64,000 nt of DNA from Candidatus Eisenbacteria bacterium (GCA_016867495.1 VGJL01000004.1:1-64000), one strand, 5' to 3'; shown: positions 52,727 to 64,000, numbered from the stretch's first letter. Numbers and translations are program-made. Notes: generated by a model not told the origin, from the sequence alone.

Positions 52727-53066
52727 GGGGGCGCCTGGTTTCGACGGGGGGAGGGAAGCCAGAACTGCGTGCCGAGCTGTCATGGCCTCGTAAAACCCAT
52801 GGCAACGTTCAACTGCCAACACTGAATTGGCACTAGCCGCCTAGCGGCTACGTCCTCTGCGGTTGTGCCTACTGGGTCGCAGAAGGACGTCGTTACAGAT
52901 GGCTAGTCGCGGAAGCGTCTCGGTACCGCGGCGAAACTAAACGAGGCTGGCCCTGACTGGATCCTGACGGCCGGAGCTTGAGGGGCGAGATACAATAGAC
53001 CGCATACGCACGTAGAGGTTCTCGCAGATCTCCTTTCGGACGCGGGTTCGATTCCCGCCGCCTCCA
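52727..53066 (+). ncRNA. ssrA: tmRNA (ssrA)
   Basis: A one-piece tmRNA of 340 nt. The 5' end GGGGGCG pairs with CGCCTCC at the 3' end (one G-T). The 5' TGGTTTCGACGGGG and the 3' T-arm GGTTCGATTCCC are diagnostic. The likely tag frame is GCC at 52815 to TAG at 52842-52844, encoding ANTELALAA, which fits the AN-x-E-x-ALAA pattern of degradation tags. The CCA end is not encoded. The last 24 nt recur twice to the right as direct repeats, marking this as the insertion target of the adjacent elements. Confidence 0.95.
53043..53066 (+). repeat. Attachment-site core copy 1 (inside tmRNA 3' end)
   Basis: The 24-nt T-arm/acceptor segment ending TTCGATTCCCGCCGCCTCCA. It is identical to 62581-62604 and differs by one base from 61059-61082. 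tRNA and tmRNA 3' ends are classic targets of tyrosine recombinases. Confidence 0.8.
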
Positions 53067-53281
53067 ATTATATGTAGGGCAATAATTTACGGCTGGACGA
53101 TGCTCTGTGCCTCAATAGAGGGTCGTCATACATGCCTGTCGCCGCTCTCTTGTCGGTCGGTCTCCGAGGCCTGATCTGGTTCAAGGGCGTGGGCCATCCG
53201 GAGCGTGAGGAATGCCACCATGCGCTCCTCTTCGGAAGAGGCACGATGCTCGCGTGAGGCGCGGGCAGCGATCCTCACACT

Positions 53282-54700
53282 TCAGCTCACGCGATCGAGG
53301 TAGCCCCGCCTGCCAGAGCAGGTCCGCCCGCCCGGCGCTTTGTGCCTTCTGAGGGTCGCGTTGTTGCTCGTATGGCGAAACTCCTTGCTGCACGCGGGAC
53401 ATCGGAACACGTACGTCGGTCCGACGCGATGCGTCCTGGGAGAGGTCGTCGTCCGCAAGCGCCGAGTCGGCGCTGCGGCATGACGCTGGGGAATCGCAGA
53501 CGGCAGGATCGGCGCGAAGCCGCCGGAGACGAACTCGATCCGGTACCGAGGCGTGAAGGGCTGATCCGTCGGCCGCGCGTTACGGATCTCGGCAGTGTTG
53601 AACGCCTTGATGTGTGTTCCCCCAACCTCCCAGGCGTAGAGGAGGATGTTCCCGGTTCCCGCTTGCCGTAGTGAGTAGGGTTCGACCAGCCGGTCGCGTC
53701 CGTGGTAGGTGAAACGAATGAGAAGCCGGTTCGACCCGGCGAAGCGGATCGCCTCGAGTCCGAGGCCCCGACCCCAGTAGCGGATCCCAGCAGGCGCGAT
53801 CGACTCAAGATCGCCTGGAATGGGCGCCCGAGGGAGTGCAGCGGCGGGAATCGGAACAGGAGTGTCGATCCACTGCAAGGAGGCGGGGACGCCTTCGAGC
53901 ATGCTGTCGATGGGCGGAAGCTGCGGCAGTTGGTGCCGGAGCATGTTCTCCCACTCGGACCTGAGCTCTTCCGCCGTCCGGACATGAGCAACGAGTCGAG
54001 CGGATGTCGGGATCTCAAGTGCCTTCGCCTGGCATTTTCCTCGGAAGAGCTCCCGCGTCCGCTCGAGATTCAGACCGACGTCTTGGTTGTTCAGGACGTA
54101 GACGACGTCATAGAGGTCCCGCGGGCGCGTGCGCTCCTGAAGCGCCCGGGTCTTCTCAGCGAGAAGCTCTTCGAGCGGATAGGCCCGGATGCTCGCCGGA
54201 AGCGGGAGCGTGTCCGGATACGGATGGAAGATCGGAGCGCCGACCGGTTCGCTGAGGAGGGGTTCGTGCGCGGTGAGGTCGAAGAGGATCCGGCGGGGTT
54301 CTCCCGGGAAGGCGAGCGGTCCCTTGTATCCGAGCCGCGCCTTGAAGGTCGCGCGGCCCTGTTTGTCGTGCCTTTCGTCGACGACGATAGTATCCGCGGA
54401 GATCTCGATGCCGCTCTCCTCCGCCACGGCATGGGCGACCTCGCGCAAAACCGTGAGGATCTCGTCCCGCGCGTACGGTGCTTCCGGCCGCAAGGTGAAG
54501 TCGAGATCCTCGGAGAACCGGTACGTTTCGAAGTAACACTTCTTGAGGCAGGTGCCGCCCTTGAACACCCACATCTCGCTGACGACGGGATGGCGTCCCA
54601 AGCCCCAGAGCAGCCAGCCTAGGACGTAGTCCTTCTCGACGACCTCGGGCCGGAGTTGCCACTCGCTCGCCCGATCGAGGATGTCCTGCTTCGTGATCAT
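53282..54700 (-). CDS. abiEii: AbiEii-family nucleotidyltransferase toxin with WYL-like domain and C-terminal zinc finger
   Basis: A 472-residue protein. The N-terminal nucleotidyltransferase has FKGGTCLKKCYF and RFSEDLDF with the catalytic acidic pair. RPRDLYDVVYVL is the second family mark. The middle-to-C part (about 320-400) reads FAGSNRLLIRFTYHGR, VEPYSLRQAGTGNILLYAW, like WYL ligand-binding domains. The end has a C2H2-like CPACSKEFRHTSNNATLRRHK...C finger. AbiEii toxins stop growth during phage infection. The ATG at 54700 overlaps the antitoxin stop (ATGA); longer upstream starts lie within the antitoxin. Confidence 0.85.
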   Translation of the reverse strand: MITKQDILDRASEWQLRPEVVEKDYVLGWLLWGLGRHPVVSEMWVFKGGTCLKKCYFETYRFSEDLDFTLRPEAPYARDEILTVLREVAHAVAEESGIEISADTIVVDERHDKQGRATFKARLGYKGPLAFPGEPRRILFDLTAHEPLLSEPVGAPIFHPYPDTLPLPASIRAYPLEELLAEKTRALQERTRPRDLYDVVYVLNNQDVGLNLERTRELFRGKCQAKALEIPTSARLVAHVRTAEELRSEWENMLRHQLPQLPPIDSMLEGVPASLQWIDTPVPIPAAALPRAPIPGDLESIAPAGIRYWGRGLGLEAIRFAGSNRLLIRFTYHGRDRLVEPYSLRQAGTGNILLYAWEVGGTHIKAFNTAEIRNARPTDQPFTPRYRIEFVSGGFAPILPSAIPQRHAAAPTRRLRTTTSPRTHRVGPTYVFRCPACSKEFRHTSNNATLRRHKAPGGRTCSGRRGYLDRVS

Positions 54701-55536
54701 TCGTCGTCTGATGAGGGGATCGATGCGTTCACCCAGAGTCCCCAACGCTTCAGGAGGCGCCCCTTGCTCCGAATCGACGGATCGAGTCGGATGACGCCAG
54801 TGCTCCGCCGGGCATGGGAGGTCAAGATGAGCGCCGTTTCTGTAGGGAAGAGCCGTTCGAGAAGAAACCCGAATCTCTTGATCCCAGCGGCCCGTGTCGC
54901 GTCACCGAGGTATTCGAGGATCTTCGGGAAGTTCGAGCTCTTCTGTGCGGCGTATGTCTTCAGGATATCGGTGAGGTGCCGGATTCCGCCAGCCCAGGTC
55001 GGATCAACGAGGGCGTCCGCGATCGTCCGCTCACGGTCCGAGACCGGAACCCGAACAGCCCCGCGCCACACCGGCGCGGTTCCGACAACGCGATCCGGGC
55101 GGACTCGGACGAGATGGAACTCCGTGCCGAGAAGACGCGGCGAGCGATTCCGAACGGCGGCGGCGGTCACGACGAAGGTGGACCGGAAGAGCTGTTCGGT
55201 CAGGCCCCAGTGCTCGGCCGCGCTCCAGCCGCCGATGTAGCACGGGGAGAAGAGACGGAGAGCGAGCACCCAGGGGTCGGGCGCGACCACAGCCTCACCG
55301 GCGCTCGACTCAAGCGGCAGGACGTAATAGAGTCCGCGATGCACGCGGGCGAGCCAACCCCGCCGGGCCAGGGCGGCCAGGCGGACGGCCGTGGATCGGC
55401 GGCTCAGGCCGAAGAGCGACGCGGCTTCGTCGACGGTGACAATCCCGCCGACGGCATTCCGAGCCAGGACCGTCAGGACAGCCCTTGCTGACGTGGACTC
55501 GCCCATTGCCTTATTTCGTAACGAGTTAGGTTCCAT
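54697..55536 (-). CDS. abiEi: AbiEi-family antitoxin / transcriptional regulator
   Basis: A 279-residue protein. Its N-terminal winged helix (GGIVTVDEAASLFGLSRRSTAVRLAALARRGWLARVHRGLYYV, read in parts) is the AbiEi antitoxin DNA-binding domain. The C-terminal domain has YIGGWSAAEHWGLTEQ and VPVSDRERTIADALVDP, both typical. It should repress its own operon and neutralise AbiEii. Start ATG 55536 is preferred (MEPNSLRNK); an alternative is 55506. The four-base overlap with abiEii shows one operon. Confidence 0.9.
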   Translation of the reverse strand: MEPNSLRNKAMGESTSARAVLTVLARNAVGGIVTVDEAASLFGLSRRSTAVRLAALARRGWLARVHRGLYYVLPLESSAGEAVVAPDPWVLALRLFSPCYIGGWSAAEHWGLTEQLFRSTFVVTAAAVRNRSPRLLGTEFHLVRVRPDRVVGTAPVWRGAVRVPVSDRERTIADALVDPTWAGGIRHLTDILKTYAAQKSSNFPKILEYLGDATRAAGIKRFGFLLERLFPTETALILTSHARRSTGVIRLDPSIRSKGRLLKRWGLWVNASIPSSDDE

Positions 55537-55792
55537 GGTATGATGCGAATGCCGTTATTCCTCTATTCCAGATACAACTGCACTCGCAGTGTACCCCTGT
55601 GGATCCCCCTGTCAAGACCGTCGGTTCAGAAGATCGCGACGCCGGGACAACGACAAGCGCTGCCCAAGTCCAAGGCCGCCGCGACCACTGCACGGAGCGC
55701 GCGCTGAGAGTCGCGGTCGGCGGTCCGCGCGAGGAGCCGTTCTTCCTGGCGCGCGCCACGCTGCGCTGGAGCGGGCGACAACAGAGAGAAGG
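55537..55792. other. Divergent promoter region of unit 1
   Basis: 256 nt between the abiE operon and the TPR/helicase operon. It is richer in AT near 55500-55570 and contains the short palindrome TAACGAGTTA at 55520-55529, a possible AbiEi site. No clear -35/-10 pair could be assigned to either direction. Confidence 0.4.
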
Positions 55793-57031
55793 ATGATGAA
55801 GAAGATCGAAACCGATGCCGAGGAATGGGTCAAACTGGATCAGCTCATTGCGGAGATCACGGTCCATGCGCAGGGCGACGACGAGCAGTTCCAGGCGTTT
55901 CGGCAGATGCTCGCAGCCCGAATCAGTCTGCCGTCCGACGGGTTCGTCATCGGTGAACCTGTCTCGGTCGTGGGGTTCGAATACGATGGAAACCAGCGGC
56001 GCGGGTTGACGGTGCGGTGCCGGCGCCATGACGGCTCCGAGCATGTCGTGGTGGCATCTGAAGTCATACTTCCCGCAAGCACGGGCGGGGCTCGCTACCT
56101 TGACGCTTACCGGATGTGGATGGGCCTCGATCCGTCGCCTCGCGACGTCGCAACTCCGCCCTTCCGCAAGCGCCAGCACAAGGTCAAGGCGGCCGACATC
56201 GACCTCGGCGGTCCCGTCGAGCTTGTCGTGCTGTCCGTCGCGCAGAACGCGGCGCGTTGCAGGCTCCTGGGCAGCGATCGGGTCATCACGCTGCGCCCGA
56301 GTCGTCGCCTCTGGGATCTCGTTCCCGGCGAAATCGCGGTGGTGAGTCCGCGCAGACAGTGGAGCTACGCCGGTCACCCCTACCTGTCCGGCGAGATCGA
56401 TTCAACGCGACTCGACGCCGCTGCGCTGGGCCTCGTGCCGCTGAAGCTAGAAGACCAGGGCGCCTGGACTCCTGGCGAGGACTACTGGGGTGAGGAGGAT
56501 GAGCCGATCGAGGACTGGGCCAAGCCGATCATCGCCCATGGCCCCAGGCGAGCATTCGAGATGGAACAGGTGGTGCCGGGGAGAGACGAGCACGATTTCG
56601 ACTCCGACCCGATCTGCGAGTCCAACGACCTCAAGGATGCTGGTGATCATGTAGCCGCGCACAAGATCCTCATGGGGCTCTGCTGGGCGGATCTCCGTTG
56701 TCTGGATGCCCATGCACATCTCGGCAACCTGGTCTTCGGCCATGGGCTGGGGGAAGCGATTCGTCACTACGAGGTCGGGTTTCGGATCGGCGAGCTGTCG
56801 CTGGGCCCGAACTTCGATGACCTCCTGCCCTGGGGACATATCGACAACCGACCGTTCCTACGTTGCATGCACGGCTTCGGCCTCTGCCTGTGGCGCCTTG
56901 GCCGATTCGAGGAAGCCGCGCGTATCTTCGACCGGATGCTCTGGCTCAACCCGTCGGACAACCAGGGCGTGCGCTTCCTAATCGACGACGTGGGGAGAAA
57001 GAGGGCCTGGGAAGGCCGGGAAGGGAGGTGA
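55793..57031 (+). CDS. TPR-like protein of the helicase cluster, unknown function
   Basis: A 412-residue protein starting at ATG 55793 or 55796 (GAAGG precedes). The N-terminal part is acidic, then a beta-rich segment follows (VVGFEYDGNQRRGLTVRCRR, VELVVLSVAQNAARCRLLG, LVPGEIAVVSPRRQW). The C-terminal ~120 residues are helical pairs of tetratricopeptide type (AHAHLGNLVFGHGLGEAIRHY, then FLRCMHGFGLCLWRLGRFEEAARIF, read in segments). No enzyme motif is seen. It is followed 40 nt later by the XPB N-domain protein, so it is probably an adaptor for that system. Confidence 0.65.
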   Translation: MMKKIETDAEEWVKLDQLIAEITVHAQGDDEQFQAFRQMLAARISLPSDGFVIGEPVSVVGFEYDGNQRRGLTVRCRRHDGSEHVVVASEVILPASTGGARYLDAYRMWMGLDPSPRDVATPPFRKRQHKVKAADIDLGGPVELVVLSVAQNAARCRLLGSDRVITLRPSRRLWDLVPGEIAVVSPRRQWSYAGHPYLSGEIDSTRLDAAALGLVPLKLEDQGAWTPGEDYWGEEDEPIEDWAKPIIAHGPRRAFEMEQVVPGRDEHDFDSDPICESNDLKDAGDHVAAHKILMGLCWADLRCLDAHAHLGNLVFGHGLGEAIRHYEVGFRIGELSLGPNFDDLLPWGHIDNRPFLRCMHGFGLCLWRLGRFEEAARIFDRMLWLNPSDNQGVRFLIDDVGRKRAWEGREGR

Positions 57032-57070
57032 CCAAGTGGGGAAGAAGTTGATGAGGCTGGGCCCGAAATC

Positions 57071-58981
57071 ATGAAACGATACAACGCTGATGGAGGAATC
57101 CCCACGCTCCAAGTCGCGCTCACTGAGTACATGAACGCGGACGACCTCAGGAAGCTCGCCGCGCTGACCAAACAGAAGCTGCCCACCAGGAAGGGCGACC
57201 TCAGCGACCTCATCTTGCGGCATCTCGGCGGGGAGCGGTTGCGCACAGCCTGGCAATCCCTCGATGAGCTGCAGCGCGCGGCCATCGCCGAAGTTGTGCA
57301 CTCGAGCTCGACCCGGTTCCTCGCCGATCGGTTCCTCGCCAAGTACGGACGAGATCCGAACTGGGGCACCGGCGACAAGTACGGCTACCAGCGCAGCCCG
57401 TCGATGCTGGGCTTCTTCTTCTACGGCAACGGGGTGATGCCGGACGATCTCAAGGCGCGGCTCAAGGCGTTCGTACCTCCCCCTGTCGAGGCCAGAATCA
57501 AGGTGATCGCGGACCTGCCGGCCGCCCACGCCCTTCCGTTCTCCCGGTGGAACCCGAAAACCCATGCCACGGAGAAAGGCACCAAAGAAGTCCCGCTCGC
57601 GGTTCACGAGACCGAGAGAACCGCCCAGCGGGAGCTACTCTCCATCTTGCGGCTCGTTGACGCTGGCAAGGTTTCAGTGAGCGACAAGACGCGTCGTCCC
57701 TCGTCTACGGCAATCGGCATAATCACGAACATCCTCGAGGGTGGCGACTACTACCCACGCCTCCCGGTCAAGGACAAGTGGCACGACGAGAACGCCGGGC
57801 CGATCCGCGCGTTCGCCTGGCCTCTTCTCCTCCAGGCCGGCGGCCTGGCTCAGCTCTCGGGCTCGAAGCTGCAGCTGACGAAGGCAGGCCGAAAGGCGCT
57901 CGCCGAGGCCGCTGCCGAGACGATCCGGACAATCTGGACGAAGTGGGTGGACACGACCATTCTCGACGAGCTGTCACGCATCGATTGCGTCAAGGGCCAG
58001 AGCGGCAAGGGCAAGCGTGGGCTCACGGCCGTATCCGCGCGGAGGGACGCGATCGCCAATGCGCTGGCCGAGTGTCCGGTCGGAGTCTGGATCCTGACCG
58101 ATGAGTTTTGCCGCTTCATGCGAGCCTCGGACAACGATCTCTCGGTGACGCGTAACGCCTGGAACCTCTACATCAGCGAGCCCCAGTATGGTTCGCTGGG
58201 CTATGACAACAGCGCGCGCATTCTGGACGAGCGCTATCTCTATTGTCTCCTCCTGGAGTACGCCGCCACGCTCGGTATGATCGATGTCGCGCTCATTCCG
58301 CTAGTTGGCGCTCGCCGCAACTACGGCAATATGTGGGGCACGGACGGGCTGGCGTACTTCAGTCGCTACGACGGACTGATGTACTTGCGAATCACCCCGC
58401 TCGGCGCCTACTGCCTGGACGTCTCATCGAACTACCAGCCCACGCCTGTCGACGTGAGACCCGTACTGCGGGTGCTGCCCAATCTGGAGGTTGCGGCCAT
58501 CGGTGCGGAGCTCGAACAGAGCGACCGGCTTGCCTTGGATACCTATGCAACCAGAGTGTCGGATCTTGTATGGCGGCTGGACGCCGACAAACTCCTCGCC
58601 GCCACGGAGAAGGGCCGGCCGGTACGTGAGATCCTGGAGTTTCTGATCGCCCGGAACGGCGATGCGGTCCCCGATACGGTCACCCGCTTGCTCGATGATG
58701 TCGCTGACCGAACCTCAAAGATCCATGACCGTGGCCTCGCGCGCCTTGTCGAATGTGCCGATCCCGCACTGGCTGCGCTCATTGCCAACGATTCGCGAAT
58801 GCGAAGGTACTGCATGCGAGCCGGGGATCGACATCTGGTTGTGCCGGCACCTTCGGAGGCGGCATTCAAGCGCGCCCTGCGCGAGCTCGGCTACCTCCTG
58901 GCCCTGGGCGGGGCTCGACCTGCCAAGGACCACCGCCCGAGTTCAGCGGACGACGAGACACCGCAAGCAACTGAGGTCTGA
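57071..58981 (+). CDS. Helicase-associated protein (Helicase_C_3 / XPB-Ssl2 N-terminal-like)
   Basis: A 636-residue protein without ATPase motifs. The start (MNADDLRKLAALTKQKLPTRKGDLSDLILRHLGG, in parts) and the C-terminal ~200 residues match the Helicase_C_3 or XPB/Ssl2 N-terminal-like domain found fused or adjacent to bacterial XPB helicases. The matching C-terminal stretches are RLDADKLLAATEKGRPVREI, LDDVADRTSKIHDRGLARLV and RALRELGYLLAL. The middle has winged-helix-like segments (LLQAGGLAQLSGSKLQLTKAGRKAL). It lies 4 nt before the helicase gene, so a stoichiometric complex with the helicase is likely. Confidence 0.75.
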   Translation: MKRYNADGGIPTLQVALTEYMNADDLRKLAALTKQKLPTRKGDLSDLILRHLGGERLRTAWQSLDELQRAAIAEVVHSSSTRFLADRFLAKYGRDPNWGTGDKYGYQRSPSMLGFFFYGNGVMPDDLKARLKAFVPPPVEARIKVIADLPAAHALPFSRWNPKTHATEKGTKEVPLAVHETERTAQRELLSILRLVDAGKVSVSDKTRRPSSTAIGIITNILEGGDYYPRLPVKDKWHDENAGPIRAFAWPLLLQAGGLAQLSGSKLQLTKAGRKALAEAAAETIRTIWTKWVDTTILDELSRIDCVKGQSGKGKRGLTAVSARRDAIANALAECPVGVWILTDEFCRFMRASDNDLSVTRNAWNLYISEPQYGSLGYDNSARILDERYLYCLLLEYAATLGMIDVALIPLVGARRNYGNMWGTDGLAYFSRYDGLMYLRITPLGAYCLDVSSNYQPTPVDVRPVLRVLPNLEVAAIGAELEQSDRLALDTYATRVSDLVWRLDADKLLAATEKGRPVREILEFLIARNGDAVPDTVTRLLDDVADRTSKIHDRGLARLVECADPALAALIANDSRMRRYCMRAGDRHLVVPAPSEAAFKRALRELGYLLALGGARPAKDHRPSSADDETPQATEV

Positions 58982-58985
58982 CCGC

Positions 58986-60662
58986 GTGGCGCTGTCGCCC
59001 GAAAACGCCCTGATCGTACAGAGTGACCGCAGCGTCCTCCTGGAGGTGCGCACCCCGAGGGCTGAGGACGCCAGGGTAGCGGTTGCTCCCTTTGCCGAGC
59101 TTGTGAAGAGCCCTGAGCATGTCCATACCTACCGCCTCACGCCGCTGTCGATCTGGAACGCCCGCGCGGCGGGGCTCTCCGCCGAGATGATGGTGGCTGC
59201 GTTGCGCGAGCACGCCCGGTACCCGGTGCCTCCGAGCATTGAAGAGGAAATCACCGACCTGGCGGCGCGCTACGGCCGCGTGGTCATCACTCTGGAAGGC
59301 GGGTCGCTGCGATGCACATGCGCGGACGAGGCGACGGCCGAGCTTCTCCGCCGAGATCGAAACGCCGGCCGGTACCTCGCCGACCGCGTGGACGGGACCA
59401 GCTTCCGCGTCGACCTGGGGCAGCGCGGCGCCCTGAAGCAGGCCCTGGTGGTCGCCGGATTCCCGGCCGAGGATCTAGCCGGCTATGTGACCGGAGACAG
59501 CCTCACGATCGCCCTGCGGGAGCGCACGGCCTCCGGCACGTCGTTTGAGGTTCGCGAGTACCAGAGGCGGGCGGCGGAGTTGTTCTATGCGGCGGGTTCC
59601 GAGCGCGGCGGCAGCGGTGTGATCGTCCTTCCCTGCGGCGCTGGCAAGACGATCGTCGGGCTTGCTGCCATGGAATTGGTCGGCCAGACGACGCTCGTGC
59701 TCACAACCAGCCTCACGGCGGTCAAGCAATGGCGGCGGGAGCTGCTCGACAAGACCACCGTTCGTCCGGACGACGTCGCCGACTATACAGGCGAACAGAA
59801 GAACACGGGGCCCGTGACGCTGACCACCTACCAGATGCTCACTTGGCGAGCGGATCGGGAGGACGAGTTCCAACACCTCGAGCTCTTCCGGGCGCGCTCG
59901 TGGGGTCTCATTATCTATGATGAGGTTCATCTGCTGCCGGCTCCGGTGTTCCGCGCGACCGCTGACCTGCAGGCATGCCGGCGGCTGGGGCTCACGGCCA
60001 CGCTCGTGCGAGAGGACGGCCGCGAGGGAGACGTGTTTGCCCTGATCGGACCCAAGCGCTTCGACGTTCCCTGGAGGGATCTCGAACGGCAGGCCTGGAT
60101 CGCCACCGCAACCTGTGTCGAGGAGCGCGTACCCATGAGCGCTGAGCGGCGGATGGAGTACGCCCTTGCGGACAGACGGTCGCAGTTCCGGATCGCTGCC
60201 GAGAACCCGGCCAAGATGGCTCGACTGCATAGACTGCTTGATCGACACAGCGACGGCAGCGTGCTGATCATCGGGGAGTACATAGCGCAGGTTGAGGCCA
60301 TCGCCGAGGAGATCGGATCCCCACTGGTCACGGGCAAGACGCCGCAAGCCGAGCGCGAGCAGATCTATGATCGTTTTCGTCGCAACGAGCTGCACTGCAT
60401 CGTGCTCTCAAAGGTCGGGAACTTCGCCATAGATCTTCCCGACGCCGACGTGCTCATCCAGGTATCAGGCATGTTCGGTTCTCGGCAGGAGGAGGCGCAG
60501 CGGCTCGGTCGCATCCTGCGGCCCAAGGGTGATGGCCGCGCCGTGCACTTCTTCACCCTAGTCTCACGCGATACCCGCGAAGAAGAGTTTGCCCACCACC
60601 GCAAGCTTTTCCTCATCGAGCAGGGCTACTCGTACCAAGTGGTCACCGCCGATGGCGGGTGA
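58986..60662 (+). CDS. XPB-family superfamily 2 DNA helicase
   Basis: A 558-residue helicase. After an N-terminal damage-recognition-like region come Walker A CGAGKT (Lys221), motif Ia TTSLTAVKQW, the DEVH box (Asp312), the LTATLVRED motif with the XPB RED triplet (Arg342-Asp344) and motif VI QRLGRILRPKGDG. XPB unwinds or translocates on DNA in repair; bacterial copies are often chromosomal. Here it sits with its partner inside an island at tmRNA next to AbiE, suggesting a defence or mobile-element role. Start GTG 58986 is the first codon with suitable spacing after the preceding stop. Confidence 0.9.
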   Translation: MALSPENALIVQSDRSVLLEVRTPRAEDARVAVAPFAELVKSPEHVHTYRLTPLSIWNARAAGLSAEMMVAALREHARYPVPPSIEEEITDLAARYGRVVITLEGGSLRCTCADEATAELLRRDRNAGRYLADRVDGTSFRVDLGQRGALKQALVVAGFPAEDLAGYVTGDSLTIALRERTASGTSFEVREYQRRAAELFYAAGSERGGSGVIVLPCGAGKTIVGLAAMELVGQTTLVLTTSLTAVKQWRRELLDKTTVRPDDVADYTGEQKNTGPVTLTTYQMLTWRADREDEFQHLELFRARSWGLIIYDEVHLLPAPVFRATADLQACRRLGLTATLVREDGREGDVFALIGPKRFDVPWRDLERQAWIATATCVEERVPMSAERRMEYALADRRSQFRIAAENPAKMARLHRLLDRHSDGSVLIIGEYIAQVEAIAEEIGSPLVTGKTPQAEREQIYDRFRRNELHCIVLSKVGNFAIDLPDADVLIQVSGMFGSRQEEAQRLGRILRPKGDGRAVHFFTLVSRDTREEEFAHHRKLFLIEQGYSYQVVTADGG

Positions 60663-60896
60663 AGACCGAGAGGCGCACTCCCGCAAGGAGCGCCGCTCCT
60701 TGGTGGTGCCCTGGCCGCAGAGCGCATGATTGCCGAGTCTCGGCTCCTTCCGAGGGCCTTGTTGGAGCATCGAGGCGTCAGGACCTGAAGGCGGCGTGCG
60801 ATGGGCAGTCATTGTCCGGCGGATCAGCATGTTCACGAAGATTCAAGTGGACCCTGGTTTGATCTGGACGGCATGAAGTGGATCAGGCAGGCGGCG
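60663..60896. other. Non-coding spacer before module A
   Basis: About 235 nt between the helicase stop and the first terminal module. No gene or hairpin terminator was recognised. Confidence 0.4.
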
Positions 60897-61082
60897 GGAC
60901 CCTGCCCTGCCGCCTCCAAAATGCCTCCACGACCGGGGGGGACTCGGGGGGACTCCAGGGGATAGAGGGGCAACGGAAAGGCGGCGGTAACTCGTGGTTT
61001 TCGAACCCGATCCGTCCGAACTCGCGCAGCGCCATCCGGTTAGGTTCTTGCCCGTAATCGGCTTCGATTCCCGCCGCCTCCA
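60897..61082 (+). repeat. Terminal module A with attachment-site core copy 2
   Basis: About 186 bp. It opens with CCTGCCCTGCCGCCTCCA (60901-60918), continues with AATGCCTCC and a G-run, and closes with CCGGTTAGGTTCTTGCCCG plus the core (61036-61082). The last 47 nt match module B with three mismatches. The core differs from tmRNA by one base (61062). The opening 18-mer itself ends with the same GCCGCCTCCA as the core. Confidence 0.8.
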
Positions 61083-61094
61083 CATCCCGAAGCG

Positions 61095-62261
61095 TCATGT
61101 CCCGGCGTTCAAAGGGCGCACGCGCTCCAGAAGCTGTACGCACGCGATTGCCCGGACCCGCTCCGCCAAGGGAAACGTGTCCCGCCCCGCGTGAACGATC
61201 TCCAAGCGGTCCAGTTTCAGATCCACCAGTGCGGAACGCATCGACGGGGTGACCTTCGGCGCATCCGTGCGTTTGAATTCGAAACCCAGACGCCGGTTTC
61301 CGCGCACGACTAGAAGGTCCAACTCCGCTCCCGTGTGGGTCCGCCAGAAGAAGCACTCCTCCGGTCGGGCCCCGAGCCGAGCCACCACTTGCTGCAGGCA
61401 GAACCCCTCCCAGGATGCGCCGAGGGCGGGATGCGATTGCAGCTCGTCGCGCCCCCGGATGCCGAGCAGTACGTGGAGCAGCCCCGGGTCAGAGAGATAG
61501 ACCCGGGGCGCCTTGACTTGGCGTTTGCCGAGGTTCTCAAACCACGGCTGGACCTGGCGGACGACGAAAGCCGCCGTCAATAGGTCGAGGTAGCGGCGCA
61601 CCGTGGTGTCCGCCACGCTGAACGCCCGGCCGAACTGAGAGGCATTCCATGGCTGCCCGTGGACATGGGCAAGCATGGACCAGAACCTGCGCAGGGTGAC
61701 TGCCGAGACCCGCAGCCCGAAACCAGGAAGGTCGCGCTCGAGAAAGGTGCGTACGTACTCCTCCCGCCATTCCACCGAACGCGCCTCGGAGGAGGCCAGG
61801 AAGGACCTGGGAAGTCCGCCCCTCAGCCAGAGACGATCCAGGCGGTGTGGGCCGACTTCATCAAGGTCGAAGCCGCCGACCTCGTGGTGGGCAATGCGTC
61901 CCGCCAGAGTCTCTGAGCTCTGCTGCAGGAGCTCAGGAGAGGCACTTCCCAGGACCAGGAATCGCGCCGGAGTCCGCCTCCGATCGGCCAGTACGCGGAG
62001 GACAGGGAAGAGATCGGGGCGATGCTGGATCTCATCCAAGATCACGAGTCCGCGGAGATCCTCCAGTGTGAGCATCGGCTCCGCCAGGCGGGCCGCGACC
62101 CGGGGATCCTCAAGATCCAGGAAGGTGATAGGCCCGCGATGCCTCGCGGCCAGCATGTGTGCCAGGGTGGTCTTGCCTACCTGTCGAGCCCCGAGCAGCG
62201 CCACGACCGGGTGCCGGCTCAGCAAGGACTCAACCTTTGTGAGCTGTCGAGCTCGCTCCAT
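61095..62261 (-). CDS. DUF4143-type AAA+ ATPase (unit 2)
   Basis: A 388-residue protein of the AAA_14/DUF4143 family. It has Walker A LLGARQVGKTTLA (about 23-35), Walker B GLVILDEIQHRPDL, sensor-like FLVLGSAS and a winged-helix segment (FGRAFSVADTTVRRYLDLL). The C-terminal PD-(D/E)XK-like part has FWRTHTGAELDLLV and LGFEFKRTDA. Such proteins are common in bacteria and mobile DNA and have no settled function. An AGGGTG site precedes ATG 62261. It is the only gene of unit 2 and is read toward the tmRNA. Confidence 0.88.
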   Translation of the reverse strand: MERARQLTKVESLLSRHPVVALLGARQVGKTTLAHMLAARHRGPITFLDLEDPRVAARLAEPMLTLEDLRGLVILDEIQHRPDLFPVLRVLADRRRTPARFLVLGSASPELLQQSSETLAGRIAHHEVGGFDLDEVGPHRLDRLWLRGGLPRSFLASSEARSVEWREEYVRTFLERDLPGFGLRVSAVTLRRFWSMLAHVHGQPWNASQFGRAFSVADTTVRRYLDLLTAAFVVRQVQPWFENLGKRQVKAPRVYLSDPGLLHVLLGIRGRDELQSHPALGASWEGFCLQQVVARLGARPEECFFWRTHTGAELDLLVVRGNRRLGFEFKRTDAPKVTPSMRSALVDLKLDRLEIVHAGRDTFPLAERVRAIACVQLLERVRPLNAGT

Positions 62262-62427
62262 GTCACCCTAAGCTACTATGAAAAGTCGGCGGCAGCCACA
62301 GACATTTCATGGTGACTCGCATGTATGACCCAGCGGACCCGCAGCGTCCGCGATCCGAAGTCCGCACTCGCACCTTCCGATCGGTTCGCACGCTTCATCA
62401 AACAGCTACAGCGGGCACCGGGACACG

Positions 62428-62604
62428 GGAACCTGCCCTGCCGCCTCCAGAATGCCTCCGCGACTGGTGGGGGACTCGGGGGACTCGGGGGGAATGACGG
62501 AGGCCGCGGTAACCAACCATTCTACAACCCGATGCGTCCGAAATCGCGCGGCGTCAACCGGTTAGGTTTTTGCCCGCAATCGGGTTCGATTCCCGCCGCC
62601 TCCA
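62428..62604 (+). repeat. Terminal module B with attachment-site core copy 3
   Basis: About 177 bp. The same opening 18-mer is at 62432-62449, followed by AATGCCTCC, a repeated GGGGGACTC stretch and CCGGTTAGGTTTTTGCCCG. The core (62581-62604) is identical to the tmRNA 3' end. It is followed by AAGTCATC, unlike the tmRNA flank. Confidence 0.8.
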
Positions 62605-62664
62605 AAGTCATCTGCTGAGACTCCTCGGAATCAGGTCGGCGCACTCGCGCATGCCCCGGAAGCA

Positions 62665-63861
62665 CTAGAGCGCGGCCCACGGGTGCACGACAAAGCCCTG
62701 CCTCCGATATGCCCGGTCCCCTGCGTAGACCAGGGCTCCCGGCGCGTCCGGTTGACCGCTCAGCTTCCTCCAGTACTCCAGGCCCCGGAAGAAGTCCGAG
62801 GCCACCGTCATCCCCGACTTGATCTCGATCGGCATGAGACTAGGGCCAAGCTCGAGCAAGAGGTCGATCTCATGCCCCGTCGAGTCACGCCAGAAGTAGA
62901 GATCACTCTCTTCTCCCTGGTGCAGCCGATTCTTCAGCAGTTCAGACACGATCAGGCTTTCAAAGACGGCGCCACGGGATGCGTGCCCGTGAAGCTCATC
63001 CGGGGAACGGATTCCGAGGAGGTAGCAGAGCAGGCCCGTGTCGAGGAAGTAGAGCTTGGGGCTCTTGATCATCCGTTTGCTGAAGTTGCGGTGGTGTGGC
63101 CGCAGGATGTGGATCAAGAAGCTCGCCTCCAGGATCGATGTCCACCGGCGAGCCGTGGTGTGCGTGATCCCGCAGTCGGCGCCGAGGGCGGAGAGGTTGA
63201 GGAGTTGCCCGTTGCGTCCGGCACATAGGCGGATGAAACGCCCGAAGATTTCGAGGTCGCCGACGTTGAGAATGCTACGAACATCCCTCTGAACGTAGGT
63301 CTGATAGTAACCTCGCAGCCACTGCCGGGGCTCCAGTCCCTTGTCGTGGATTCTCGGGTAGAATCCCCGGAAGAGCGTTTCCATGAGGTCGGGAACGGGT
63401 CCCCTTCTCTGCCGCGGCACGGTTCGCCCCAGTCGGGATACCGCGAACGGCCTTCTACCGTCCAGCTCCGACATCGAGAACGGAAGGAGATGGAGAATGG
63501 CGCAGCGGCCCGCCAGGGACTGGCTGAGTTTCTCCAGGAGCAGGAAGTTCTGAGAGCCACTCAGGATGAAGCGCCCCGGCTTCTCCTTCTCGTCCACCAG
63601 GGTCTGGATGTAGGAAAAGAGGTCCGGCGCGCGCTGCACTTCGTCCAGGATCACAGACCCGTTGAACTGGTGCAGGAAGCCCCGCGGATCCTCGCGTGCG
63701 AAGCGGCCATCATCAGGGTCCTCGAGCGAGACATACCGGTGACGTGGAAAGGCCGTCCGAGCCAGCGTGGTCTTGCCCGACTGGCGGGGTCCCGTCAGGG
63801 TGACCACGGGGTACTGCTCCGCGGCTCGGTGAAGGATGGGCAAGAGAGAGCGCCGAATCAT
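62665..63861 (-). CDS. DUF4143-type AAA+ ATPase (unit 3)
   Basis: A 398-residue relative of the unit 2 protein. Walker A is LTGPRQSGKTTLA (about 22-34) and Walker B SVILDEVQRAPDLF. FILSGSQNFLLLEKLSQSLAGR is the AAA_14 sensor region (read in parts), YVQRDVRSILNVGDL follows, and the C-terminal PD-(D/E)XK-like part is FWRDSTGHEIDLLLELGP with PIEIKSG. The start at 63861 (MIRRSLLPIL) has GGAGG just upstream; a longer frame lacks one. It is preceded by a perfect palindrome, unlike the unit 2 gene. Function unknown. Confidence 0.88.
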   Translation of the reverse strand: MIRRSLLPILHRAAEQYPVVTLTGPRQSGKTTLARTAFPRHRYVSLEDPDDGRFAREDPRGFLHQFNGSVILDEVQRAPDLFSYIQTLVDEKEKPGRFILSGSQNFLLLEKLSQSLAGRCAILHLLPFSMSELDGRRPFAVSRLGRTVPRQRRGPVPDLMETLFRGFYPRIHDKGLEPRQWLRGYYQTYVQRDVRSILNVGDLEIFGRFIRLCAGRNGQLLNLSALGADCGITHTTARRWTSILEASFLIHILRPHHRNFSKRMIKSPKLYFLDTGLLCYLLGIRSPDELHGHASRGAVFESLIVSELLKNRLHQGEESDLYFWRDSTGHEIDLLLELGPSLMPIEIKSGMTVASDFFRGLEYWRKLSGQPDAPGALVYAGDRAYRRQGFVVHPWAAL

Positions 63862-63883
63862 CGGATCCTCCGTGAAGCGTCCG

Positions 63884-63910
63884 CAGATTGAATTTACGAT
63901 ATTCAATCTG
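63884..63910. promoter_or_regulatory. Perfect 10-bp inverted repeat upstream of the unit 3 ATPase gene
   Basis: CAGATTGAAT (63884-63893) and ATTCAATCTG (63901-63910) around TTACGAT. It lies 23 nt upstream of the ATPase start codon in an AT-rich island, so it is a likely operator or promoter element. Confidence 0.65.
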
Positions 63911-63956
63911 TAAGATCCACTTGCCCGAGTCAAGGACCTTCCGCGACCCGGGACGC

Positions 63957-64000
63957 GGGAACCTGCCCTGCCGCCTCCAGAATGCCTCCACGACCGGGGG
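63957..64000 (+). repeat. Terminal module C, cut by the window end
   Basis: It starts with GGAACCTGCC and the same opening 18-mer (63962-63979), then AATGCCTCCACGACCGGGG as in module A. The attachment core would be expected about 120-150 bp beyond the window. Confidence 0.75.

Follow-up and report, generated by a model that had tools for sequence, protein, structure and literature searches.

The stretch of DNA analyzed here (the window) comprises 64,000 nucleotides from Candidatus Eisenbacteria bacterium (GCA_016867495.1, VGJL01000004.1:1-64000), and harbors at positions 55,793 to 60,662 three consecutive genes, encoding a tetratricopeptide repeat (TPR) protein, a protein with a C-terminal Helicase_C_3 domain (hereafter HC3) and a helicase of the XPB type. 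A sequence-only reading of this DNA had proposed that the three island-borne genes might constitute a hitherto undescribed defense system; the open reading frames (ORFs), their extents and their location on the plus strand were all as that reading described, as was the 4-nt gap between the second and third genes (the HC3 stop ends at 58981 and the XPB GTG lies at 58986), the gap between TPR and HC3 being of 39 nt. All three genes had third codon positions 2-3 times more diverged than the others among the pairs analyzed, which points to purifying selection on TPR, HC3 and XPB; one out-of-frame TPR pair, formed by the window and L048, was excluded from this comparison.

By sequence criteria, the third gene encodes a full-length bacterial XPB: its product scored 825 bits against the NCBIfam model NF045503 (repair_heli_XPB; cut-off 610) over residues 8-552, matched PF13625 (Helicase_C_3) at residues 9-134 (E 1.4e-34), and found yeast and human XPB in PDB. 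The RED motif and the Walker A lysine previously noticed in this protein were both present, and K221 (Walker A), DEVH (312-315), RED (342-344) and Q505/R509 were invariant across 14 bacterial XPBs. As for PADLOC, no model fitted TPR or HC3, and XPB was matched by generic helicase models only; PbeA (70 bits) aligned with partial stretches of the helicase core and had no match to a TPR or HC3 partner, and the HmaA and DpdF matches corresponded to generic similarity in the helicase core, so that these assignments were discarded.

The pairing of HC3 with XPB is the usual bacterial arrangement among the XPBs sampled, since a Helicase_C_3 protein adjoined XPB or was found within ~6 kb in all but one of the loci examined; the one remaining record is incomplete, with XPB extending to its end. 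These loci include those of Actinobacteria, Deinococcus and Paenibacillus, with XPBs 46-56% identical to that of the window. HC3 itself serves as the partner in Verrucomicrobia, in a deltaproteobacterium and on a Gloeocapsopsis plasmid, placed directly upstream as in the window, and in locus L098 HC3 lies downstream of XPB. Rv0861c and Rv0862c of Mycobacterium tuberculosis presumably form the same pair.

HC3 matched PF13625 at its C-terminus only (residues 478-582, E 3.3e-8, 34.0 bits against a cut-off of 34.2), and its N-terminus (10-53) is weakly SAP-like. Its earlier description as XPB-N-like was borne out by profile comparison with hhalign, which showed homology between the C-terminus of HC3 and the N-terminal domain of XPB (E 8.5e-7, 133 columns). 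HC3 was also related to the Helicase_C_3 partners of actinobacterial, Deinococcus, Paenibacillus and acidobacterial XPBs (hhalign E 9.9e-15, 334 columns), and the HC3 of the window belongs to a distinct and well-conserved subfamily of ~600 amino acids (A2). A sequence search of PDB with HC3 returned only FtsY and SAP-like fragments, nothing convincing. In human TFIIH, the p52 clutch is folded like the XPB N-terminal domain and joins it in a pseudo-symmetric dimer, by means of which p52 recruits XPB (PMC6422496), and the XPB partner of the acidobacterial locus L078 (779 amino acids) matched the Pfam Tfb2 model of the p52 family (E 3.1e-8, just under the cut-off). The simplest reading of these similarities is that HC3 would be a p52-like partner, a candidate bacterial counterpart of this TFIIH subunit.

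Next to the pair, some XPB loci carry an additional gene, namely one for a 760-amino-acid protein with no Pfam family (L098, 542-2824), one for a 422-amino-acid protein weakly matching the C-terminus of the HC3 profile (L078, 5029-6297), and one for a 664-amino-acid protein with a Helicase_C_3 domain of its own (L101, 4095-6089). Between XPB and its partner, two acidobacterial loci carry an 88-amino-acid ORF (L078, 8103-8369; L079, 6170-6436) that by eye is like the XPB stretch just past the Helicase_C_3 domain. HC3 also occurs with other helicases: in L102 it lies by an SNF2 helicase, and in L104 (844-6382) an SNF2 helicase of 996 amino acids, a 281-amino-acid protein that looks SWIM-like by eye but matches no Pfam family, and HC3 are tightly packed, an arrangement suggesting that HC3 also serves SNF2 helicases. 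In the acidobacteriotal L096 (8589-14076), a tandem HC3 pair is followed by an AAA ATPase, and HC3 also adjoins an ATPase gene in L095.

The TPR protein, earlier described as beta-rich, contains a predicted OB/S1-like beta domain. Its TPR repeats are clear in the family (best 4.7e-6), whereas the window protein taken singly shows them weakly (E 0.016). An AlphaFold model built with 24 sequences was good for the N-terminal domain (predicted local distance difference test, pLDDT, mostly >80 at residues 11-110) and moderate for the middle domain. The best PDB match by Foldseek was the calcium-binding CcbP of Anabaena (3urg, E 2.3e-3, probability 1.00), with eIF5A/S1-type OB folds and TPR proteins next in rank. 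No PDB match passed E 0.001, and the CcbP assignment therefore draws on a second line of evidence, namely standalone relatives that match Pfam CcbP: residues 1-115 of the window protein did not match PF11535 (CcbP), and a bridge sequence (L012, 13854-14246) matched both PF11535 (5.3e-6) and the profile of the TPR N-terminus (6.7e-13). The protein is thus predicted, from model and sequence, to combine CcbP-like, OB and TPR domains, with putative calcium binding.

The occurrence of a CcbP-like domain beside HC3 or a superfamily 2 (SF2) helicase is recurrent: CcbP genes directly precede HC3 on Rhodococcus opacus plasmids and on Cupriavidus necator pBB1, and a CcbP gene adjoins a truncated TOTE helicase in genome G001. 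Other neighbors of TPR genes include TOTE helicases (L038, L040), SNF2-type helicases (L046), DUF4143 genes and toxin-antitoxin-like genes. A DUF6880 relative, recognized as such in L024, was found near TPR in L024, L026, L035, L041 and L043, from several phyla, and one TPR-family protein (L048, 6836-8230) carries a PRiA4_ORF3 domain (E 1.4e-9) in place of the CcbP-like N-terminus.

The distribution of the trio was assessed in the 29 loci fetched from one GTDB contig scan with the TPR alignment, which together with the window integrate a set of 30. The TPR proteins of these 29 loci derive from many phyla and are 53-74% identical. HC3 or XPB stands beside the TPR gene in only 4 of the 30 loci, and the window alone has all three genes intact, so that the proposed co-occurrence of the three genes across genomes was not borne out. 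The other three loci are L024 (Bradymonadales), with the order TPR-HC3-XPB, in which HC3 is missing residues 44-365 and XPB stops at residue 112; L027 (Rokubacteria), in which TPR is followed by HC3 residues 1-165 fused to XPB residues 523-556, a junction that marks a single deletion across an adjoining HC3-XPB pair; and L048 (Eisenbacteria), which has TPR and an intact HC3, with a TOTE helicase upstream, and lacks XPB. Since decayed copies in the same order occur in Bradymonadales and Rokubacteria, the trio is a real transferred unit: by sequence, the three-gene order is ancestral to the copies of several phyla and moved as a block, one that is rare and often broken.

The genes of the module are accessory and were transferred horizontally, as indicated by their patchy occurrence and a discordant XPB tree. 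Of the 47 genomes of the window's phylum, 2 were found to have XPB and 4 the TPR protein at nearly full length; HC3 was present in 3 of 199 Acidobacteriota, 1 of 399 Pseudomonadota and 4 of 241 Verrucomicrobiota genomes, and in 2 of 199 genomes from the phylum to which a locus titled Actinobacteria belongs. The XPB of the window groups, in the XPB tree, with that of the Gloeocapsopsis plasmid (support 96), and a same-order relative (G006) falls in a different supported clade (99). Copies of module genes are also borne on plasmids. At the sensitivity used, the viral contigs of IMG/VR contained no relative of TPR, HC3 or XPB, and the only good XPB of the phage collection, in a phage-filed record (MT836665, L069), groups with actinobacterial XPBs, this record being probably bacterial DNA. 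Together with the direct repeats of the transfer-messenger RNA (tmRNA) gene described below, this rarity and discordance are at odds with a vertically inherited core locus. Thus, of the island-borne three-gene defense system formerly proposed, the mobile and patchy character stood, whereas a conserved trio did not.

The locus was rightly considered island-borne, as its cassette boundaries were mapped at the tmRNA gene (Table 1). A repeat scan located the last 24 bases of this gene, repeated directly downstream at three places, each closing a boundary element of ~190 nt; the elements are 74-83% alike among the three copies, and together with the repeats they divide the region into cassettes. 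The trio shares one cassette (53067-61082) with an AbiE pair, which is encoded opposite to it as had been described, and the right end of this cassette is boundary element 1. Cassettes 2-4 contain one DUF4143 gene each and no integrase, and the tandem array extends downstream of the tmRNA gene from 53043 to 64000, continuing to C4:65905. No phage-type integrase gene was found on the contig of the window, and five occur on other contigs of the genome. As integrase-less units lying between attachment-site repeats, the cassettes may be akin to the cis-mobilizable elements of other bacteria.

Table 1. Features of the tmRNA-associated region. Positions are counted from the first letter of the window; those with the prefix C4 extend beyond it.
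Feature	Position	Strand	Remarks
tmRNA gene	52727-53066		
tmRNA 3' end, left boundary repeat (CGGGTTCGATTCCCGCCGCCTCCA)	53043-53066	+	repeat scan
AbiEii-type nucleotidyltransferase toxin, 487 aa	53282-54745	-	PF08843 E 2.1e-39; PADLOC AbiEii 391 bits
AbiEi antitoxin, 279 aa	54697-55536	-	PF13338 and PF09407 over cut-off; PADLOC AbiEi 248 bits
TPR protein, 412 aa	55793-57031	+	predicted CcbP-like (~14-112), OB/S1-like beta domain (~140-206), TPRs (~270-400)
HC3 (Helicase_C_3 protein), 636 aa	57071-58981	+	SAP-like N-terminus, C-terminal Helicase_C_3
XPB (ERCC3/RAD25-type) helicase, 558 aa	58986-60662	+	GTG start; N-terminal Helicase_C_3 and two RecA domains
Boundary element 1, ~190 nt	60894-61083		closes with tmRNA-3'-end copy 61059-61082, 1 mismatch
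DUF4143/AAA_14 ATPase	61095-62261	-	cassette 2, outside the trio
Boundary element 2	62425-62605		closes with exact tmRNA-3'-end copy 62581-62604
DUF4143/AAA_14 ATPase	62665-63933	-	cassette 3
Boundary element 3	C4:63955-64145		exact tmRNA-3'-end copy C4:64121-64144, right boundary of cassette 3

Similar cassettes were found in relatives. In G001, which belongs to another family of the same order, a cassette with a TPR-family gene and a TOTE-type helicase occupies the same site after the tmRNA gene, and ends in a relative of the window's boundary element (68% over 183 nt). Genome G007 contains a partial relative of this element and a tmRNA array in which a tyrosine recombinase gene (L119, 1941-3263) adjoins one repeat, ending at this copy of the tmRNA 3' end; such an enzyme is a possible source of the activity moving the integrase-less cassettes. 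Outside Eisenbacteria, no repeats of the tmRNA type were found beside the TPR genes of other phyla.

Regarding the defense context, HC3 genes lacking XPB were found directly beside Wadjet (JetABCD) on three Cupriavidus plasmids (L054, L060, L067) and beside Hachiman on Polaromonas pPNAP01 (L055). Genes for an HsdR-like helicase, an MNT-type nucleotidyltransferase and DUF4143 lie near HC3 in L077, as do RES-Xre or BrnT/BrnA in Rhodococcus and Gloeocapsopsis. Together with AbiE in the window's cassette, these neighbors favor a putative role in conflict, for which such context is the evidence.

Integrating these findings, we propose that the HC3-XPB genes constitute a laterally moved p52-XPB-like module with an HC3 clutch and an optional TPR adaptor, most likely acting on foreign DNA, a reading to which we give a probability of about 0.4. 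The C-terminal domain of HC3 would pair with the XPB N-terminal domain as a pseudo-symmetric clutch dimer, which would recruit and gate the double-stranded DNA translocase XPB, and the rest of HC3, including its SAP-like N-terminus, may contact DNA or other proteins. The CcbP-OB-TPR protein might assist SF2 helicases of several kinds as an optional adaptor or sensor. Cassettes that have no integrase and are inserted at the tmRNA gene would carry the module as cargo, in this case alongside AbiE. Defense would be its likeliest benefit, by translocating on, or opening, incoming DNA. The view of a mobile p52-XPB-like translocase, with its activity predicted, is well supported, and a defense role is plausible.

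Several results weigh against this proposal. The matches to Tfb2 are restricted to two closely related acidobacterial partners and overlap their Helicase_C_3 part; neither the HC3 members nor G000 matched the model, so that HC3 is not a formal Tfb2 member. A Tfb2 search of 12 genomes, in which the Escherichia coli and Bacillus subtilis controls also matched at E up to 1, gave usable matches only in two acidobacterial genomes (E 1.5e-5 and 1.4e-4). The structure prediction for HC3, made from a two-row alignment, had a pLDDT of 32 and was discarded, thus providing no fold, winged helices included. Many HC3 genes have no XPB alongside, some being accompanied by an SNF2 or TOTE-type helicase and many by none that was found; HC3 is therefore not an obligate XPB partner. 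The defense-gene neighbors are examples from individual loci, the HC3-XPB pairs of L098 and L100 lie among ordinary chromosomal or housekeeping genes, and two of the three relatives of the trio (L024, L027) lost HC3-XPB by deletion and kept TPR intact.

The housekeeping surroundings of L098 and L100 would fit an excision-repair-like translocase of the ordinary kind, spread by mobile elements as fitness cargo, in which HC3 docks XPB at lesions and TPR is unrelated. This account, which we consider somewhat unlikely, agrees with the NCBI family name (DNA repair helicase XPB), with the 3'-5' helicase and annealing activity of M. tuberculosis XPB (PMC3353954), and with the stability of the pair in actinobacterial, deinococcal and paenibacillus replicons; elsewhere, however, the genes occur rarely and patchily, and travel in the company of toxin-antitoxin and defense genes. 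Moreover, the biological role of bacterial XPB is unsettled (PMC3353954, PMC13024598), and "repair" would itself be an extrapolation from eukaryotes. We rank defense slightly ahead of repair cargo, and the motor mechanism, in which HC3 would dock and gate XPB on DNA, is common to both.

The deletions in L024 and L027, the 26 of 30 TPR loci with neither HC3 nor XPB beside the TPR gene, and the HC3-XPB pairs found elsewhere with no TPR protein could also mean that there is no three-gene system, TPR being an independent mobile gene with a function of its own that became chance cargo beside HC3-XPB, with the copies in this order descending from one junction. We regard this as unlikely, given that the TPR-HC3-XPB order, intact or remnant, occurs in Eisenbacteria, Bradymonadales and Rokubacteria with 59-73% protein identity over most parts, and that the N-terminal part of TPR is like CcbP, a protein encoded by a gene of its own directly before HC3 on the Rhodococcus and C. 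necator plasmids, which hints at a functional link between TPR and HC3. Finally, a cassette bounded by tmRNA repeats with no integrase of its own, and the presence of HC3 on conjugative plasmids, might suggest that the module serves the mobile element itself, opening DNA in excision or integration at the tmRNA gene, or in transfer or replication. This is very improbable, because adjacent cassettes with the same boundary elements have no module, which is thus not needed for their movement, and because the tmRNA array of G007 has its tyrosine recombinase and no such module in the stretch read.

Of greater value than the trio, in our view, is the regular presence beside bacterial XPB of a partner that has a domain like the XPB N-terminus and is comparable to p52; a gene that accompanies nearly every sampled bacterial XPB, and whose product has a C-terminal domain homologous to the XPB domain docking onto p52, is a direct candidate for such a partner. 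In a broader and quite doubtful generalization, bacterial XPBs with a p52-like clutch partner would constitute a minimal TFIIH-like motor, of which one mobile branch, with a CcbP-OB-TPR sensor in integrase-less tmRNA cassettes, would act as an anti-invader system. If this mobile branch blocks phages or plasmids, a motor familiar from transcription and repair in eukaryotes would join the helicases of bacterial immunity.

The module shares features with several known systems. Among these, AbiE, a type IV toxin-antitoxin system of abortive infection, is represented in the trio's own cassette by AbiEi and AbiEii, but as a divergent transcription unit. With the TOTE-type AEP primase-helicase conflict modules (PF22548) the locus has its TPR family in common, members of which adjoin a TOTE helicase in L040/G001, L038 and L048/G033; the helicase of the window, however, is an XPB with no primase domain. 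The archaeal XPB-Bax1 helicase-nuclease pair likewise joins XPB to a dedicated partner gene; Bax1, however, is a nuclease that binds the thumb and HD2 of XPB (PMC13024598), and domain-family searches gave no nuclease match for HC3 or TPR. Close bacterial counterparts are the loci of Actinobacteria, Deinococcus and Paenibacillus that pair XPB with a "helicase-associated domain-containing protein", which also encode a full-length XPB and a Helicase_C_3 partner within ~6 kb; unlike them, the window has an A2-subfamily partner immediately upstream, at 4 nt, and carries the pair as cassette cargo with AbiE and a CcbP-OB-TPR gene. In the p52-XPB (Tfb2-Ssl2) clutch of TFIIH, Helicase_C_3 is likewise found at the XPB N-terminus and at the C-terminus of the partner (PMC6422496); HC3 differs from p52 in having no match to the Tfb2 model, and its complex with XPB is a prediction from sequence.

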